A stretch of DNA of 64,000 bases from assembly GCF_000331995.1 (NCBI RefSeq), contig NC_020134.1, positions 620,001 through 684,000 of the forward strand, read 5' to 3'. A program made the position numbers and the translations under genes. The DNA comes from Thermoclostridium stercorarium subsp. stercorarium DSM 8532. Lineage in GTDB: Bacteria; Bacillota; Clostridia; DSM-8532. Each line of letters opens with the position of its first letter. Position 1 is the stretch's first letter. Below, piece after piece: positions 3,390-54,561 of the stretch. The notes beneath the pieces are model-generated. The model had not been told where the DNA came from and did not search any database. It saw only the letters and a program-made list of their open reading frames with translations.

Positions 3390-3821
3390 ATGAGTATTTT
3401 TGACGATGTTTTATTTGAGACCAATTCAAAGAAGAAAGGTAAAAATAAGCAAAATTCAGGCAGGAAAACCGAAAATAAAATAAAGGAGTTCAAGGAAGAA
3501 TTTTCAGAAAACATAAGTGAATATGATTATCAGCCTTACAGGAACAACGGTGTAATTTTAACCAGGCTGTCAGATCACAGCGCAAGCGTTAAATATGACG
3601 GATTGCTTGCCAAATGCGGGGCAGAGGACGTATATACCGTAGTGGGGTATGGAAGCAACAGCAACTGGGAAAACGTGCAAACAATCCGCATGAACAGGGT
3701 GGGTAACACATTCCAGGCCGACATACCTGCAATACCCGGCAAAAACATAAATATTGCGTTCAAGGACGGAGCCAATAACTGGGACAACAACAGCGGTATG
3801 AATTATACCTTTGTACAGTAA
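3390..3821 (+). CDS. Small cytosolic CBM25/53-like starch- or glycogen-binding protein
   Basis: A 143-residue protein. Residues 1-45 are highly charged and Lys-rich (KKKGKNK type) and look disordered. Residues about 55-143 form one carbohydrate-binding module of the CBM25/CBM53 type, recognisable by the VVGYG...W start, a central FQADIPAIPGKN strand and the AFKDGANNWDNNSGMNY end with the aromatic residues that bind alpha-glucans in this family. There is no signal peptide or catalytic domain, so the protein probably stays in the cytosol and binds glycogen. Its start is firm (AAAGGAGG 9 bases before the ATG). It sits alone between terminators. glgA lies 29 kb away in the same window. Role inferred, not shown. 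Confidence 0.8.
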   Translation: MSIFDDVLFETNSKKKGKNKQNSGRKTENKIKEFKEEFSENISEYDYQPYRNNGVILTRLSDHSASVKYDGLLAKCGAEDVYTVVGYGSNSNWENVQTIRMNRVGNTFQADIPAIPGKNINIAFKDGANNWDNNSGMNYTFVQ

Positions 3822-3830
3822 GTTTACAGC

Positions 3831-3854
3831 AAGTGCATCGGTTAAGATGCACTT
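3831..3854. terminator. Hairpin between convergent genes
   Basis: Perfect 9-bp stem AAGTGCATC / GATGCACTT with a 6-base loop, between the ends of two convergent genes. The T-tract on either side is weak, so it may act as a modest bidirectional terminator or an RNA 3' end stabiliser. Confidence 0.55.
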
Positions 3855-49049: not shown

Positions 49050-49193
49050 GTTATGCACCTCCCCACAGAAGATTAGTAAAATATGCTTGTGTTAAAATTA
49101 TCACAATATTCTTTTTCAGTCAATATAACAAGAGCTTTTTAGATTAATTGTATGCTGTGCAAAAATCCGATAAAACCGGGAGAAATTTTAATA

Positions 49194-49354: not shown

Positions 49355-49561
49355 ATGGCAAAAGTTAACGAAGATATGCTTATTAAAGATGTGCTTGAGC
49401 TGGACGAAGGCACGGCGCCGATTTTCATGAAGCACGGGATGCATTGCCTGTGGTGTCCTTCTTCTTATTTCGAAAGCATTAAGGATGCATGTGCCGTGCA
49501 TGGCATAGATCCCAGTAAACTTGTGGATGATTTGAACGAATATCTCAGCAGTAAGCAGTAA
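49355..49561 (+). CDS. DUF1858 domain protein
   Basis: 68 residues of the DUF1858 family: a helical mini-domain with D-x-L-IKDVLELDEGTAPIFMKHGMHCLWC and a second half SIKDACAVHGIDPSKLVDDLNEYL. The CxxC pair could bind iron or act as a redox switch. In related proteins this domain accompanies hybrid-cluster and ScdA-like redox proteins. ATG 49355 has GGGAGG at the right distance. An in-frame ATG further upstream does not. It has its own terminator, directly ahead of the hydrogenase-like operon. Confidence 0.85.
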   Translation: MAKVNEDMLIKDVLELDEGTAPIFMKHGMHCLWCPSSYFESIKDACAVHGIDPSKLVDDLNEYLSSKQ

Positions 49562-49563
49562 TA

Positions 49564-49594
49564 AAAAGCCGCCTTGATTTGGCGGCTTTTTATA
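49564..49594 (+). terminator. Terminator after DUF1858 gene
   Basis: AAAAAGCCGCC / GGCGGCTTTTT stem with a 7-base loop and T-tract, immediately after the stop. Confidence 0.9.
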
Positions 49595-49672
49595 AGCGAA
49601 ATTTCCGTTCGGTGATAAAATTGACGCTGTTTTGACAAAAAATATTACCGTTTTGTTTTAATGAGGTGTTGT

Positions 49673-50029
49673 ATGGTATTAAGTCAGATTAGGGATCTGC
49701 TTAATGCAGAAATTCACACATGTGCCGATAAAATGGATATCGACATCAAATCGGCGTGCGGCGCCGATTTAATGAGCGATGTAATGGCATTTTCAAAAGA
49801 AAATGCAATGCTTCTTACAGGTCTTATAAATCCTCAGGTTATTAGAACGGCCGAAATGATGGATATGCAGGTGGTTGTATTCGTCCGCGGTAAAAAGCCC
49901 ACGAGTGAGATGTGCAAATTGGCAGAAGAAAAGGGTATTGTTCTTCTGTCGACGAACTTATCCATGTTTACCGCCTGCGGAGTTTTATACAAAGCCGGAA
50001 TTGTAGGAAAAGGAAGCGAATGTGAGTAG
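49673..50029 (+). CDS. DRTGG-domain regulatory protein (first)
   Basis: 118 residues. Pattern LSQIRDLLNAEIHTC...DIDIKSACGADLMSDVMAF, AMLLTGLINPQVIRTAEMMDMQVVVFVRGKKPTSEM, GIVLLSTNLSMFTACGVLYKAGI fits the DRTGG domain found in HPr-kinase-like and phosphotransacetylase N-terminal modules, thought to bind a small ligand. ATG 49673 follows GAGGTG. The earlier ATG at 49661 lacks a site. First gene of a tightly packed five-gene operon; its end overlaps the next gene by 8 bases. Confidence 0.85.
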   Translation: MVLSQIRDLLNAEIHTCADKMDIDIKSACGADLMSDVMAFSKENAMLLTGLINPQVIRTAEMMDMQVVVFVRGKKPTSEMCKLAEEKGIVLLSTNLSMFTACGVLYKAGIVGKGSECE

Positions 50030-50447
50030 TCTTATCAGGAAAGAATACGATATTCCTGCCAATGATTTTTCACGGGCAGGGGAAGCGTCAAGTAATGTCA
50101 GAAAATTATTAACTCAGTTGGGTGTAAATCCGACTATTATTAAAAGAACATCCATTGCCATGTATGAGGCCGAACTCAACGCTGTGATACATGGGAATGG
50201 GGGAAAAGCCCGTGTTGAAATTTTTGAAGACAGGATCGAGATACTGGTTTATGACGAGGGACCCGGGATAGCGGATATTGAGCTTGCGATGCAGGAAGGT
50301 TATTCCACCGCGCCCGACTATATCAGGGAAATGGGATTTGGAGCGGGCATGGGCTTGTCAAACATCAAAAAAAATTCTGATAAATTTGTTATAGAAAGTG
50401 AACTCAATAAAGGAACAAGAGTTTATATAACAATATATCTGTATTAG
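50022..50447 (+). CDS. RsbW-like ATP-binding (anti-sigma/serine kinase type) protein
   Basis: 141 residues, a GHKL ATPase of the anti-sigma-factor kinase family. N box YEAELNAVIHGNGGKARVEI, G1 box YDEGPGIADIELAMQEGYSTA, G2 box GFGAGMGLSNIKKNSDKF and a final ELNKGTRVYITIY strand. GTG start overlapping the preceding gene. No sigma factor or anti-anti-sigma (STAS) partner is encoded here, so its protein target is elsewhere or is the hydrogenase-like protein that follows. Confidence 0.88.
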   Translation: MSSLIRKEYDIPANDFSRAGEASSNVRKLLTQLGVNPTIIKRTSIAMYEAELNAVIHGNGGKARVEIFEDRIEILVYDEGPGIADIELAMQEGYSTAPDYIREMGFGAGMGLSNIKKNSDKFVIESELNKGTRVYITIYLY

Positions 50448-50461
50448 GAAAGGGCAGTAAT

Positions 50462-51799
50462 ATGGCTGAATATTTCCATTCGGTTACACTCGAAAAGGAA
50501 AAATGCCGTGGATGCACCAACTGCATAAAACATTGCCCTACCGAAGCCATACGGGTCAGAAACGGAAAGGCCATGATTATTAATGAACGGTGTATAGACT
50601 GTGGAGAGTGCATCCGCGTATGCCCGTATCATGCCAAAAAGGCTGTTACCGATCCGCTTTCGGTAATGAACGAATATGAATTCAGGGTGGCGCTGCCGGC
50701 TCCGTCACTGTATGGTCAGTTCGGGAAGGAATATTCAAGGGAAAGAATCCTGAAAGGGCTGACGGAACTTGGCTTTGACTGGGTTTTTGAAGTGGCGCGG
50801 GCGGCTGAAATAGTGTCTGATGCGACACGACACATATTAAAATCCGGAAAAGTCAGAAAACCTCTTATATCATCCGCATGTCCCGCTGTAGTCCGTTTAA
50901 TTCAGGTACGGTTCCCGAATTTGATTAACAATATACTGAAATTGGAATCCCCGATGGAGGTTGCAGCAAGAATAGCCAAACAAACCGTTGTTTCCGAGAA
51001 AAATATTCCTGCTGAAAAAGTAGGGGTATTTTTTATATCTCCATGCGCTGCCAAGGTTACAAGCGTAAAGGCGCCGTATGAAAAAAAGGAATCTTCTGTG
51101 AACGGCGTTTTTTCAATAAAGGATATACATATTAAACTGATGGAAAAAATGAAAAACATACCACCGGATTGTGACTGTGAGCTGGTCTCATCCGGAGCTT
51201 ATGGCGTCGGATGGGCGGGCTCGGGGGGCGAGTGTGCCGCCCTTGAAAGACCCAAAACACTGGCGGTTCATGGTATTCACAATGTTATAGCCATATTTGA
51301 AGAAATAGTTGAAGAGAAACTGAAGGATGTGGATTTCGTCGAGGCGCTGTCCTGTATTGAAGGATGCCTTGGAGGTCCTTTGACTGCGGTCAATCCGTTT
51401 GTTGCAAAAACAAACCTGAAATGTCAGGTTAACAGAGCGAAAAGTAAGGATTTTTCCTCCGAAAACACAGCGGCCGATTATCAGGATTTGTTATGGACAA
51501 AGGACATGGAATACAAGCCTATATTAAAGCTTGATGAAAACGTGATGAAGGCAATGATAAAAATGCAGAAACTGGAAGAAATAAATGACGGACTTCCCGG
51601 TCTTGACTGCGGCGCCTGCGGTTCACCAAATTGCCGTGCCCTTGCCGAGGATATAGTCAGAGGGCTTGCGTTTGAAACCGACTGCATTTTCAAACTGAGG
51701 GAAAAGGTTTCTGATCTGGCCGATCAGATGAAAGCCTTTGAGCATATTTACAGAACAAAACAGGATGGTTCAGGCAGGGGGAAAACAAATGACGGTTAA
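50462..51799 (+). CDS. Sensory-type [FeFe]-hydrogenase homologue with extra Fe-S domains
   Basis: 445 residues. Two [4Fe-4S] sites at Cys15/18/21/25 and Cys44/47/50/54, an [FeFe]-hydrogenase large-subunit domain (about 72-345) and a C-terminal four-Cys Fe-S motif (Cys383, 386, 391, 408). H-cluster motifs are L1 SSACP (137-141), L2 SPCAAK (193-198) and L3 ALSCIEGCLGGP (295-306): the four cubane ligands Cys140, 195, 298 and 302 are present. Ala139 stands where catalytic enzymes have the proton-transfer Cys, a substitution known from sensory hydrogenases. Low-turnover sensing is inferred. Embedded between an anti-sigma-like ATPase and a DRTGG protein. Confidence 0.88.
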   Translation: MAEYFHSVTLEKEKCRGCTNCIKHCPTEAIRVRNGKAMIINERCIDCGECIRVCPYHAKKAVTDPLSVMNEYEFRVALPAPSLYGQFGKEYSRERILKGLTELGFDWVFEVARAAEIVSDATRHILKSGKVRKPLISSACPAVVRLIQVRFPNLINNILKLESPMEVAARIAKQTVVSEKNIPAEKVGVFFISPCAAKVTSVKAPYEKKESSVNGVFSIKDIHIKLMEKMKNIPPDCDCELVSSGAYGVGWAGSGGECAALERPKTLAVHGIHNVIAIFEEIVEEKLKDVDFVEALSCIEGCLGGPLTAVNPFVAKTNLKCQVNRAKSKDFSSENTAADYQDLLWTKDMEYKPILKLDENVMKAMIKMQKLEEINDGLPGLDCGACGSPNCRALAEDIVRGLAFETDCIFKLREKVSDLADQMKAFEHIYRTKQDGSGRGKTNDG

Positions 51800-52139
51800 G
51801 GATTTTACGGAGCAATTCGGATACGAAATATTGACATGTGCCGACAAAGCGGATAAAACAGAGATAACAGGGGTTTATATCTGCGATCTTTTAAGCATGG
51901 CGATGGCGCGCGTAAAAGACGGGAACATGTGGGTTACGGTGCATACAAACGTTAATATTGTTGCCGTGGCGTATCTTACCAATGCCGCATGCATAGTCAT
52001 TCCAGAGAATATTGAGGTTGAGGAGATTACCGTCAGCAAAGCAGCTGAAAAGGGAATAATTATAATTCGGGCTCCGCACACAAGTTATGAAATATGTGTA
52101 AATTATTATCTAAAAAGTTCGGAGTTGAGCCATGGTTAA
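51789..52139 (+). CDS. DRTGG-domain regulatory protein (second)
   Basis: 116 residues, similar in build to the first DRTGG protein of the operon (FTEQFGYEILTCADKADKTEITGVYICDLLSMAMARVKDGNMWVTVHTNVNIVAVAYLTNAACIVIPENI type). ATG 51789 lies inside the 3' end of the hydrogenase-like gene (11-base overlap) behind a GGGGG tract. The end overlaps the PHP gene by 8 bases. Overlaps on both sides point to translational coupling. Ligand unknown. Confidence 0.85.
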   Translation: MTVKDFTEQFGYEILTCADKADKTEITGVYICDLLSMAMARVKDGNMWVTVHTNVNIVAVAYLTNAACIVIPENIEVEEITVSKAAEKGIIIIRAPHTSYEICVNYYLKSSELSHG

Positions 52140-52854
52140 AGCGGCTGTGGATTTGCATATTCATTCCTGCCTTTCGCCGTGTGCGAGCAATGACATGACC
52201 CCCGGCAATATCGTAATGATGTCGAAAATAAAAGGGCTTGATATAATTTCGGTATGCGATCATAACCATACCGGAAACCTTGAAGCCGTTGCAAAAGTAG
52301 CCGGTGAAGTGGGGATTTTATTTATTCCCGGCCTTGAACTTGAAACCAGCGAAGAAATACATATCCTTTGCTATTTTCCTTCATTGGAAAGTGCTTTAAA
52401 CATGCAGGCCGCTTTAAAGGACTTCTATACCGATATAACTAACAGGGAAGATATTTTCGGAGAACAGTGGATTATGGATGAAAACGACCGGCCGGTGAGA
52501 AAGGTGGAACACCTTCTGACGGCTGCCACAAAACTTGATTTATACAAATGTGTTTCACTGGTTCGCGAAATGGGTGGGGTTCCCGTGCCCGCCCATGTGG
52601 ACAGAAATTCTTACAGTATCATATCAAATCTTGGTTCAGTACCCGAAGATTTAGGCTTTAAAACTCTGGAACTGTCAAGATATACGACAAAGACAGATTT
52701 TCTTGACAAATATCCTGAATATTCCGGGAAATTCCTTATTACGTCGTCAGACGCCCATGATCTCGGGATGATTCTTGAAAGGGAATCATTTATTGAGCTG
52801 GAACGTCTTAGCGTGTATGATGTTTTTGAAAGGCTGAAGGGTTGTGGAGGATAA
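52132..52854 (+). CDS. PHP-family metal-dependent phosphoesterase
   Basis: 240 residues, TrpH-like PHP fold. Metal ligands are in DLHIHSCLSPC, VCDHNHTGN, GLELETSEEIHILCYF, PVPAHVDRNSYSI and ITSSDAHDLG. Such enzymes hydrolyse phosphate from nucleotides or small molecules. As the last gene of the sensory hydrogenase-like operon it could turn over a signalling nucleotide or 3',5'-bisphosphate, which is only inference. pyrK follows after 2 bases. Confidence 0.85.
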   Translation: MVKAAVDLHIHSCLSPCASNDMTPGNIVMMSKIKGLDIISVCDHNHTGNLEAVAKVAGEVGILFIPGLELETSEEIHILCYFPSLESALNMQAALKDFYTDITNREDIFGEQWIMDENDRPVRKVEHLLTAATKLDLYKCVSLVREMGGVPVPAHVDRNSYSIISNLGSVPEDLGFKTLELSRYTTKTDFLDKYPEYSGKFLITSSDAHDLGMILERESFIELERLSVYDVFERLKGCGG

Positions 52855-52856
52855 TT

Positions 52857-53633
52857 ATGAATTTTAATGCTGTGGTTGTCAAAAATGAAAAACTTGCGGA
52901 GAATATTTACCTTCTCAGGCTGAAATCCGAAAAAATTTCTCATAACGCAGCCCCCGGGCAGTTTGTTAACATCAAGTGCTGTGACGGCCTGGATACATAT
53001 TTAAGGCGCCCTGTAAGTATTTTAAGGACTCATGGCCCTGAAAACACTTTTGATATTGCATTTATGGTCAGGGGAAAGGGCACGAGGATTTTGTCATGCC
53101 TGAAAGAAGGCGATGCCGTGGATTGCATCGGGCCGCTCGGCAGAGGGTTTACACTTCCTGAAAAAGGAGAAAGGATCTGTGTTGTCGGCGGGGGTATTGG
53201 GATATTTCCGCTGCTGTATTTGCTGGAAAAAAGTGCCGGTGCTTACAAAGCGGCATTCCTTGGCTTCAGGTCCGGGGGGCTGGTTGTTTTGGGAAAGGAC
53301 TTCGAAAAAGCGGCAGATCAGCTTATCATATCAACCGACGATGGAAGTTTCGGAGAAAAAGGGCCGGTGACAACGCCTTTTTTGAAATATCTTGAAAAAG
53401 AGAGACCTGACAGGGTTTATACCTGCGGGCCTGCGCCGATGATGATAAAGGTGGCCGACGCATGTAATGAAAGAGGCATATTCTGCGAAGTTTCAATGGA
53501 ACAGCGTATGGGCTGCGGAATAGGGGCATGTCTGGTATGTGTTTGCAGGATAAAACATAACGATGACTGGGCATATGAGCGTATATGCAGGGACGGGCCC
53601 GTATTCAGGGCGGAAGAAGTGATTTTTGAATAA
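52857..53633 (+). CDS. pyrK: Dihydroorotate dehydrogenase electron-transfer subunit
   Basis: 258 residues. FAD/NAD-binding ferredoxin-reductase-like protein that passes electrons from the PyrD flavin to NAD+. RRPVSILRTHG binds FAD, GGGIGIFPLLYLLE binds the nucleotide, and the C-terminal MGCGIGACLVCVC motif binds the [2Fe-2S] cluster. ATG 52857 with GGAGG upstream. It overlaps no gene but follows the PHP gene directly, so both operons may share one transcript. Confidence 0.95.
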   Translation: MNFNAVVVKNEKLAENIYLLRLKSEKISHNAAPGQFVNIKCCDGLDTYLRRPVSILRTHGPENTFDIAFMVRGKGTRILSCLKEGDAVDCIGPLGRGFTLPEKGERICVVGGGIGIFPLLYLLEKSAGAYKAAFLGFRSGGLVVLGKDFEKAADQLIISTDDGSFGEKGPVTTPFLKYLEKERPDRVYTCGPAPMMIKVADACNERGIFCEVSMEQRMGCGIGACLVCVCRIKHNDDWAYERICRDGPVFRAEEVIFE

Positions 53634-53655
53634 TGAATTTGGGGAGGAAGCATTC

Positions 53656-54561
53656 TTGGACTTAACTGTTAATATTGCCGGATTAAAACTGAAAAATCCT
53701 GTGATTGCGGCTTCAGGCACGTTCGGTTTCGGAAGGGAGTTCAGTGAATTTTTTGATTTGAATCTTTTAGGAGGTATTTCGGTGAAGGGGCTTACATTGG
53801 CTCCGCGGAAAGGAAACCCGCCGCCCAGAATAGCCGAAACCCCTGCGGGAATTCTGAACAGTGTTGGACTTCAGAATCCGGGCGTTCATGCCTTCGTCCG
53901 GGACGAAATACCCTTTTTAAGAAAGTTTGATACATGCATAATAGCAAATGTAGCAGGGAATACCGTCGAGGATTACTGTCGCATGGCGGAGATTTTGTCC
54001 GATGCTGATATTGATGCCATTGAACTCAATGTTTCCTGTCCGAACGTTAAGGAAGGCTGCCTCATATTTGGCAGCACAGCGGAGGGAATCTCCAAAGTCA
54101 CATCGGCGGTCAGGAAGGTATGTAAAAAAACACTTATCGTAAAGCTTTCCCCAAATGTAACCGATATAACCGAAATGGCAAAAGCCGCCGAATACTCAGG
54201 CGCCGACTGTGTTAGTTTAATAAACACAATTCTGGGAATGGCTATAGATATAAACTCCAGAAGGCCGGTGCTGGGGAACGTCGTGGGCGGGCTCTCAGGT
54301 CCGGCAGTGAAGCCAATTGCGGTACGGATGGTATATCAGGTGTCGAAAGCGGTAAAAATACCTGTTATCGGAATGGGCGGTATTTCAAATGCCGATGATG
54401 CAGTTGAATTCATGCTGGCGGGTGCATCTGCTGTGATGATAGGAACCGCGGGTTTTGTCAATCCTTATGTTTGGATCGAAACCATTGAAGGAATAAAACA
54501 ATACATGGAAAAGCACGGGTTTCAAAAGGTTTCGGATATTACAGGGGCGTTAATTGAATAG
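53656..54561 (+). CDS. pyrD: Dihydroorotate dehydrogenase (NAD-dependent, catalytic subunit)
   Basis: 301 residues, class 1B enzyme that oxidises dihydroorotate to orotate with FMN. Motifs: NPVIAASGTFGFG, SVKGLTLAPRKGNPPPRIAETPAGILNSVGLQNPG, NVSCPNVKEGC with the catalytic Cys, VKLSPNVTDI, GGLSGPAVKPIA and GMGGISNADDAVEFMLAGASAVMIGTA. The TTG at 53656 is chosen because GGGGAGG is 8 bases upstream. A TTG at 53626 would overlap pyrK. Works with PyrK. Confidence 0.95.
   Translation: MDLTVNIAGLKLKNPVIAASGTFGFGREFSEFFDLNLLGGISVKGLTLAPRKGNPPPRIAETPAGILNSVGLQNPGVHAFVRDEIPFLRKFDTCIIANVAGNTVEDYCRMAEILSDADIDAIELNVSCPNVKEGCLIFGSTAEGISKVTSAVRKVCKKTLIVKLSPNVTDITEMAKAAEYSGADCVSLINTILGMAIDINSRRPVLGNVVGGLSGPAVKPIAVRMVYQVSKAVKIPVIGMGGISNADDAVEFMLAGASAVMIGTAGFVNPYVWIETIEGIKQYMEKHGFQKVSDITGALIE

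Follow-up and report, generated by a model that had tools for sequence, protein, structure and literature searches.

At positions 49673-52854 of the 64,000-nucleotide stretch of Thermoclostridium stercorarium DNA analysed here (the window), an earlier note had proposed a compact set of five genes encoding a DRTGG protein, an RsbW-type ATPase, an [FeFe]-hydrogenase homologue, a second DRTGG protein, and a PHP protein, and the open reading frames and domain matches bore this out. The features of the locus were as follows:

49561..49593, + strand: hairpin terminator, separating the DUF1858 gene from the cassette
49673..50029, + strand: DRTGG-fold protein 1, 118 aa (Pfam DRTGG, AlphaFold2 model, PDB match)
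50022..50447, + strand: GHKL ATPase like SpoIIAB/RsbW, 141 aa (HATPase_c, ATP-site motifs intact)
50462..51799, + strand: 445-aa [FeFe]-hydrogenase homologue of group D (M2e), a putative H2 sensor (domains, residues, tree)
51789..52139, + strand: DRTGG-fold protein 2, 116 aa, a distant paralogue of protein 1 (Pfam, profile match)
52132..52854, + strand: PHP-family metal-dependent phosphoesterase, 240 aa (AlphaFold2, PDB matches, invariant metal-site residues)
52857..53633, + strand: pyrK (NCBIfam PRK00054, 1.3e-63), outside the conserved cassette
53626..54561, + strand: pyrD, dihydroorotate dehydrogenase (NCBIfam PRK07259, 9e-133), outside the conserved cassette

The terminator consisted of a perfect inverted repeat of 13 nt with a 7-nt loop, followed by a T run. 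Within the cassette, the genes overlapped by 8, 11, and 8 bp, and the sole gap, of 14 bp, lay between the ATPase and hydrogenase genes. The ATG at 49673 was preferred over the open reading frame start at 49661 for DRTGG-fold protein 1, and protein 2 was started at 51789, a TTG start at 51738 looking too early. No clear promoter was found for the cassette (16 promoter-like sites against 12.8 expected), and no perfect Rex-type operator for it was found within the 64-kb window. Rex-type matches with two or fewer mismatches numbered nine in the window against 5.6 expected, with at least nine in 8 of 100 shuffles; one of them, at 49089-49106, lay upstream of the DUF1858 gene.

The hydrogenase homologue matched Fe_hyd_lg_C (E = 4.5e-33), FeS PF04060 (6.8e-12), and N-terminal 4Fe-4S families. 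Alignment of the window protein placed the cubane cysteines C140, C195, C298, and C302, Lys198, and Ala139 at the positions claimed previously. All 80 further loci kept these four cysteines and the PCxxK lysine, and the equivalent of Ala139 was alanine in 77. Residues A139, S193, and L296 stand where CpI has C299, M353, and M497; position 193 was serine or threonine in 80/80 loci, and position 296 was leucine in only 34 and asparagine in 35. The eight N-terminal cysteines (two 4Fe-4S motifs) and C383, C386, C391, and C408 (Cx2Cx4Cx16C) were each found in 79 or 80 of the 80 loci, and no PAS domain was among the protein's 12 Pfam matches (E ≤ 0.001).

For comparison with the group D protein TamHydS, the Thermoanaerobacter wiegelii orthologue served as a stand-in, and the group C protein of this genome took the place of the T. 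maritima group C sensor, the loci of T. mathranii and T. maritima lying outside the set. All 22 TamHydS positions taken from the papers had the same numbers in the T. wiegelii orthologue, and 19 of these 22 residues were kept in the window protein aligned to it. The window protein retained E257, E294, and S254 of the proposed TamHydS proton path E252-E289-S249-D265 and had H270 in place of D265, a position occupied by aspartate in 76 and histidine in 3 of the 80 loci and described as well conserved (PMC10407848).

In a 41-row tree, the 11 group D sequences grouped together (support 100/100) and separately from groups A, B, and C; this clade was recovered in 100% of 200 bootstrap trees, with T. 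wiegelii representing the absent TamHydS. Ala139, Ser193, Leu296, Glu257, and Glu294, the C-terminal motif, the lack of a PAS domain, and the 100/100 clade together place the protein, as judged from its sequence, in group D (M2e), the TamHydS class, as one more member of an already known and putatively sensory class. The earlier view of the protein as sensory-type and not a catalytic group A enzyme was supported in so far as it falls in the putatively sensory group D. A catalytic group A enzyme was ruled out by Ala139 in place of the proton-relay cysteine, by the pocket residues, and by the position outside clade A, and group C (M2f) was rejected since no PAS domain follows the C-terminal cluster. 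The suggestion that the C-terminal Fe-S motif replaces a PAS domain proved wrong: the motif is common to groups C and D, and group C carries an additional PAS domain behind it (PMC13104023, PMC8163306).

The ATPase matched HATPase_c (7.2e-11) and NCBIfam spIIAB (E = 1.9e-16) but scored below the curated cut-offs for both SpoIIAB (60.2 versus 135 bits) and RsbW (24.9 versus 145), and the best PDB match of its family profile was SpoIIAB 1til (8.4e-13). The protein belongs to the SpoIIAB/RsbW fold family, and the scores and the 1til match put it closer to SpoIIAB than to RsbW, which corrects the earlier description "RsbW-like". Residues E49, N53, D78, G80, G82, and G105-G111 (also F106, A108, and M110) were invariant in 32 aligned sequences, and we take E49/N53 (N-box), D78-G82, and G105-G111 to be ATP-site motifs of the SpoIIAB/RsbW type. 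No STAS protein, sigma factor, histidine kinase, or response regulator was seen in the conserved neighbourhood when families linked at blastp 1e-12 were screened by eye, a threshold at which a short divergent partner could escape; the commonest further neighbour gene family occurred in only 10/80 loci. Three STAS matches lay elsewhere in this genome. Because no STAS or sigma partner was seen in the conserved set, the classical SpoIIAB output appears to be missing.

The two DRTGG proteins of the window scored 23.7 to 24.8 bits, below the Pfam cut-off of 25.2. Protein 1 matched Pfam DRTGG at E = 4e-5, as did 30 of 33 aligned members at E ≤ 0.001, and its AlphaFold2 model (pLDDT 90), compared also with 3l2b, was most similar among PDB entries to 2ioj ("Pfam DRTGG"; E = 1.2e-7). 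For protein 2, the fold assignment derives from the Pfam match (2e-5; 32 of 36 aligned members at E ≤ 0.001) and from a profile match to protein 1 with 99.6% probability. At the likely position of the DRTGG signature (as given in PMC7226116), the sequence reads Asp-Leu-Met/Leu-Ser, and these proteins are therefore labelled "DRTGG-fold" instead of canonical DRTGG proteins; the ligand-binding role proposed for them earlier stays putative. The PHP protein of the window likewise scored below its Pfam cut-off (20.5 versus 26.4 bits), and 31 of 32 aligned members matched at E ≤ 0.001. Its AlphaFold2 model (pLDDT 97) matched EndoQ 5zb8 best (E = 4e-12) and also RNase AM 7ug9. Residues H11, D43, H44, E69, H77, H155, D207, and H209 were invariant in 32 sequences, and H9 was present in at least 90%; this His/Asp/Glu set presumably binds metal. 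The DRTGG and PHP alignments each comprised the window protein and 31 to 35 of the 73 to 75 extracted orthologues.

A neighbourhood survey, which the earlier note had called for, showed that the five genes are kept together in many anaerobes. All four partner genes flanked the hydrogenase gene in 64 of the 68 testable loci of the named set of 80, to which the conservation counts refer; a second locus set was left out of them, as it contained two group C loci (L054 and L055) and some loci repeating contigs of the named set. These counts supersede a first count (flanks of at least 2.5 kb; upstream DRTGG and ATPase each 67/70, downstream DRTGG and PHP each 61/64, all four partners 55/57, hydB 31/40), in which false N-terminal extensions of genes at high-GC loci had shifted the distances between genes. 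Among the 39 loci with long flanks, 30 had hydB near the cassette, downstream on the same strand in 27 and divergent in 3, and 9 had no hydB nearby. Of the 49 loci with hydB, 46 had a hydABC-type GHKL ATPase at most 8.5 kb away. No fusion of the hydrogenase to a partner was found among the long group D forms: by eye, L090 (804 aa) owed its length to nothing more than an open high-GC frame upstream of its likely start, and L120, L101, and L110 were longer by 60 to 154 residues on the N-terminal side of the usual start, L110 also having an odd tail. Papers of 2012 (PMC3561251) and 2020 had already placed group D genes near kinases and hydABC; a description of the whole five-gene cassette as a unit was not found in the open-access literature.

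As previously noted, no hydrogenase partner subunit or maturase was encoded inside the cluster. In the same genome, hydABC lay at 995-1010 kb and HydE, HydG, and HydF at 735-739 kb, and there were four other [FeFe]-hydrogenase homologues. Two Rex-type sites were found at hydABC, whereas the cassette had no perfect one. The pyrK gene started 2 bp past the cassette end and directly followed the cassette in six surveyed loci only (L056-L059, L062, and L070), and it is probably co-transcribed with the cassette in this lineage. In this genome the cassette no longer adjoins hydABC and leads straight into pyrKD; given this position and the lack of a perfect Rex-type site, any effect on hydABC must act in trans.

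No HydE, HydF, or HydG was detected in 16 of the 43 genomes carrying the group D gene, and 15 of these 16 keep a catalytic-type HydA gene. In the two computable pairs of maturase-lacking genomes, dN/dS of the group D gene was 0.04 and 0.06. H-cluster loading is therefore not certain in all genomes; the missing maturases are a poor guide to group D on its own because HydA also needs the 2Fe cluster.

We consider it somewhat probable that the cassette encodes an H2 or redox sensor that passes its output to the four co-encoded proteins and ultimately adjusts HydABC. TamHydS has low activity, a Km for H2 below those of groups A and C, and an H2-linked change in secondary structure (PMC8163306, PMC10407848, PMC13104023). 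By analogy, the hydrogenase homologue, with its ligands intact, would carry an H-cluster and turn over slowly, and H2 binding or reduction would change its conformation. Through a putative contact, this change could alter the activity of the neighbouring SpoIIAB-like ATPase, a probable serine kinase whose substrates would be one or both of the DRTGG-fold proteins; the PHP phosphoesterase may be the opposing or a downstream enzyme, and the output would adjust the bifurcating hydrogenase HydABC. The sequences show that the protein belongs to group D, that the active-site, ATP-site, and metal-site motifs are intact, and that the five genes form a unit usually found beside hydABC; we infer H-cluster occupancy, sensing, each protein-protein step in the order hydrogenase to ATPase to DRTGG and PHP proteins, and the target. 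The C-terminal cluster is reported not to be reduced by H2 (PMC13104023), which speaks against a signal via the redox state of that cluster. Further points against this reading are the missing SpoIIAB-type partners, the doubt over H-cluster loading in the 16 of 43 genomes, His270 in place of Asp265, the retention of Leu296 in only 34/80 loci, the 9 of 39 long-flank loci lacking hydB, and the separation of the cassette from hydABC in this genome.

A more specific version, which we hold to be unlikely, is a new kind of phospho-switch, self-contained and responding to H2, in which the hydrogenase would gate the kinase, the DRTGG pair would replace the STAS antagonist as substrates, and the PHP protein would be the phosphatase; where a group C hfs operon with a SpoIIE-type phosphatase is also present, as here, the two sensors might drive opposite arms of the switch. 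It is also doubtful that the cassette tunes HydABC post-translationally, in assembly, activation, or electron routing, rather than by a signal acting on gene expression, the ATPase then serving HydABC itself as chaperone or kinase. The by-eye screen saw no DNA-binding partner in the conserved set, the hydABC-type GHKL ATPase is close by in those 46 of 49 hydB loci, and hydABC here has its own Rex-type sites, but cassette and hydABC both persist far apart in this genome, and HydABC of other species is active when purified without cassette proteins.

The kept H-cluster ligands and N-terminal relay cysteines, and the turnover of H2 by TamHydS in both directions (PMC8163306), would also suit a hydrogenase that works, if slowly, as a redox valve carrying two clusters of the ferredoxin type, with neighbours that are ordinary regulators of its own operon. 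This seems improbable in view of Ala139 in place of the proton-relay cysteine, Ser193 and Leu296 in place of methionine, H2 evolution by TamHydS a thousand-fold lower than in group A (PMC11803613), and the four other [FeFe]-hydrogenase homologues in the genome. An Fe-S redox sensor devoid of the 2Fe subcluster and of H2 chemistry would fit the 16/43 genomes lacking maturases and the low dN/dS in the two pairs; we think it quite improbable, as 15 of those 16 genomes keep HydA, Lys198 is present in 80/80 loci, and TamHydS accepts the cofactor in vitro (PMC8163306). Least credible is a lineage-specific recruitment to pyrimidine synthesis, with redox state reported to the PyrKD dihydroorotate dehydrogenase: the 2-bp spacing and the shared gene order point that way, but this order is confined to six surveyed loci, and most other long-flank loci have hydABC near.

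Group D hydrogenases serve as in vitro models of H-cluster tuning, and a 2026 paper on TamHydS called finding its interaction partners critical (PMC13104023). The conserved cassette offers four candidates for the partners of the group D sensor. In addition, the "AraC regulator" that adjoins TamHydS according to PMC8163306 may turn out to be a DRTGG-fold protein lacking a DNA-binding domain; if so, the sensor output would have to be sought elsewhere.

Compared with known systems, the cassette ATPase shares fold family and ATP-site motifs with the anti-sigma kinases SpoIIAB and RsbW and differs in its GFGAGMGL loop and in scores far under the curated families. The group C (M2f) proteins TmHydS and HfsB share the N-terminal clusters, the H-domain, and the C-terminal Fe-S motif but have a PAS domain (PMC10055695, PMC11837493), as does the group C copy of this genome, whose hfs operon, in place of kinase, DRTGG, and PHP genes, encodes another hydrogenase and a SpoIIE-type phosphatase. 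Carere et al. (2012) listed the group D M2e proteins, Cthe_0335 among them, as sensory and as lying, in most cases, ahead of a bifurcating hydrogenase; that enzyme is trimeric, a histidine/serine kinase is often encoded in between, and the passages on these loci name just the kinase, not the DRTGG pair and PHP gene as a unit (PMC3561251). From TamHydS the window protein differs in being 53% identical to the T. wiegelii stand-in, in His270 for Asp265 and H124/S128 for E122/K126, and in a cassette that precedes pyrKD and does not adjoin hydABC. The two share the architecture, the Ala/Ser/Leu pocket, Glu257 and Glu294, the C-terminal Cx2Cx4Cx16C motif, and the lack of a PAS domain, and the same five genes are found around the T. 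wiegelii orthologue.

The 445-aa hydrogenase homolog (50462-51799), here the window protein, belongs to group D and has intact sites and conserved company. In a maximum-likelihood tree of 41 rows, the group D rows formed one clade with 100/100 support, apart from groups A, B, and C, and all 200 bootstrap trees (100%) recovered this clade; resolution was weak for group C and the HfsD type. A grouping with the catalytic group A enzymes, which an earlier note had named as an outcome against its sensor reading, was thus not found. Its active-site pocket comprises A139, S193, and L296. Among the best 80 of 593 relatives, the cubane cysteines and the lysine were kept in all 80, as were Glu294 and a Ser or Thr at the S193 position; alanine at the A139 position was found in 77 and Glu257 in 79, and Leu296 was present in only 34, with Asn in 35. 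The C-terminal motif is Cx2Cx4Cx16C, which the available portion of PMC8163306 describes for groups C and D alike; it is therefore no substitute for the PAS domain, contrary to the claim in the same note.

The earlier placement of the five cassette genes was accurate: all lie on the + strand, overlap by 8, 11, and 8 bp, and leave a single 14-bp gap. The last gene is followed after 2 bp by pyrK and then by pyrD, so in this genome transcription probably continues from the cassette into pyrKD. The variant with the cassette before pyrK was found in the window's own family (L056-L058 and L062) and at loci L059 and L070. Directly upstream of the cassette lies a gene (49355-49561) for a small DUF1858/hybrid-cluster-associated redox disulfide protein, which occupies the same place in L056, L057, L058, L062, and L070, all with the pyrK arrangement. 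One further feature separates the two:

49561-49593, hairpin with a perfect 13-nt stem and a T run, between the DUF1858 gene and the cassette

The locus survey scanned GTDB species genomes and covered the best 80 of 593 confirmed relatives, a sample biased to nearer ones; neighbor counts were made with corrected gene starts. All four partner genes flanked the hydrogenase in 64 of 68 testable loci, in line with the earlier reading of the five genes as a unit. In sufficiently long loci of this sample, upstream DRTGG and ATPase genes were found in 71 and 73 of 74, respectively, and downstream DRTGG and PHP genes each in 69 of 73. The loci without the full set were L100, L071, L096, and L090, two of them from Spirochaetota. 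At L100, unlike nearly all other loci, DRTGG and ATPase genes are set off from the group D frame, about 2.8 to 3 kb upstream. Within the same best 80, 39 loci had flanks reaching 7.5 kb each way; hydB of the bifurcating operon was nearby in 30 of them (same-strand and downstream in 27, divergent in 3) and absent in 9. Of 49 loci with hydB, 46 had an ATPase of the hydABC type no more than 8.5 kb away. The hydABC-type ATPase (L006:4328-4888 in the window's genome) is a second GHKL ATPase, distinct from that of the cassette, and appears equally unexplained.

A signaling route can be proposed in which the H-cluster would do the sensing, the ATPase would act as a kinase with DRTGG as its substrate, the PHP protein would oppose the kinase, and HydABC would be the target. 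Two tandem perfect Rex-type palindromes (consensus from the accessible part of PMC5886521) lie upstream of hydABC at L006:3757-3798 (G000:C1:998757-998798), ending 36 bp ahead of the ATG at 3834, taken as the start of the first hydABC gene; the predicted ORF begins with TTG at 3726. These are two of five perfect sites genome-wide, and the cassette has no perfect Rex-type site; the cassette and hydABC are therefore probably under separate control in this genome, with any link acting in trans.

The partner proteins were compared in alignments of 31 to 35 of the 73 to 75 orthologs extracted for each. The ATPase has ATP-site and N-box residues invariant in 32 sequences. The earlier label "RsbW-like" needs correction: by profile against PDB, the closest match was SpoIIAB (8.4e-13), ahead of RsbW (1.5e-5), and the protein scores far under both curated families. 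DRTGG1 and DRTGG2 are distant paralogs of one another (profile probability, 99.6%) and do not retain the eponymous Asp-Arg/Thr-Gly-Gly signature. Structural matches to the predicted fold of DRTGG1 (pLDDT, 90) were a DRTGG protein from an archaeon, the CBS-pyrophosphatase DRTGG domain, and the N-terminal region of HPr kinase. According to PMC7226116, the DRTGG domain is important in CBS-pyrophosphatase for the binding of diadenosine polyphosphates, so a nucleotide ligand is possible for the cassette proteins. The PHP protein retains the family His/Asp/Glu set. Its confident predicted fold is nearest to endonuclease Q, RNase AM also ranking high, which suggests that it acts on nucleic acids, nucleotides, or other phosphoesters.

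The single 2.97-Mb contig of the window's genome contains five Fe_hyd_lg_C matches, one being the window protein. The others, and the maturase genes, are as follows:

995-1010 kb, HydA of the bifurcating hydABC operon
hfs-type operon, two matches, a group C PAS-bearing HydS and a second hydrogenase, with a SpoIIE-type phosphatase
2.84 Mb, stand-alone [FeFe]-hydrogenase, which we take to be group B
735-739 kb, HydE, HydG, and HydF, grouped

The hfs operon proteins (group C HydS and HfsD; L008:7108-11753) are near-identical to those of G009 (L140), a genome of another genus in the same family, with tree branches of 0 to 0.003, whereas the group D proteins are 63% identical; recent horizontal transfer of the operon is therefore likely. 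In the A6-type, catalytic-type HydA, the first active-site motif is TSCSP in the window's genome (L006:7096-8859) and in 14 of the 15 relatives examined (L154-L168), with and without maturases, and TSCCP in one. CpI has two adjacent cysteines there, the second being a cubane ligand.

A group D gene was present at an E value of <1e-100 in 43 of 61 related genomes. In 16 of these 43 (G003, G006, G007, G010-G012, G015, G016, G019, G023, G024, G030, G042, G046, G051, and G054), HydE (E ≤ 1e-40), HydG (E ≤ 1e-60), and HydF (family cut-off) were all undetected; HydF was scored among at most 25 candidates per genome, which could miss it in some genomes, though not in G010, G015, G023, or G024. Of the 16, 15 had an A6-type HydA match (E ≤ 1e-120), in some cases partial or under the cut-off. 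Ten HydG-less genomes, including G008 and G013, both without group D, had no HydG match at E ≤ 0.001, and the PCxxK and ACPGGC motifs were kept in every A6 HydA read (nine of these ten genomes plus G044).

Either the maturases lie on an unbinned replicon, which is possible in that the 16 genomes are multi-contig assemblies, or the hydrogenases are matured or used in another way in these lineages. Among ten genomes traced from loci, HydG was present in all seven without MAG in the title and missing in two of three MAGs. Five genomes from a single genus lacked HydE-HydG next to alaS, its usual location, on contigs unbroken there (L182-L186): in G010, G019, and G023, alaS is adjoined by the gene found beyond HydE-HydG elsewhere, and in G015 and G024, other genes occupy the gap. 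For HydA, dN/dS could be computed in 8 of the 10 pairs among these five and was 0.03 to 0.05; in maturase-bearing relatives, it was 0.04 to 0.05. For group D, 2 of the 10 pairs were computable, with values of 0.04 and 0.06, and the maturase-bearing relatives yielded none. In the group D tree, these five genomes make up one clade (0.998); in the HydA tree, they stand at two weakly supported places, so the loss may have happened once or several times.

Land et al. reported, in the available part of PMC8163306, an AraC family regulator adjoining TamHydS. The Thermoanaerobacter wiegelii ortholog (L083), whose locus was read in place of that of T. mathranii, is flanked by genes for an ATPase and a DRTGG protein, and the flanking proteins had no AraC or other helix-turn-helix match; one also weakly matches the PucR N-terminal family. 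Likewise, none of 36 members of the downstream DRTGG family had such a match at E ≤ 0.001. We strongly suspect that the reported regulator is a DRTGG-fold protein. At 22 named positions drawn from the accessible portions of papers on TamHydS, TamHydS and L083 have the same residue and number throughout, and 19 are kept in the window protein as aligned to L083, the exceptions being H124, S128, and H270. Relative to the open-access literature searched, as far as its text was available, two findings are new: the constant presence of the DRTGG pair and the PHP protein, and the pyrK-preceding variant. In the portion seen of Carere et al. 2012 (PMC3561251), group D comprises sensory hydrogenases that usually lie upstream of the bifurcating enzymes and are often separated from them by a kinase, and Cthe_0335 is assigned to group D and Cthe_0340-0342 to the bifurcating enzyme, a gene numbering that agrees with the hydB spacing in the surveyed loci.
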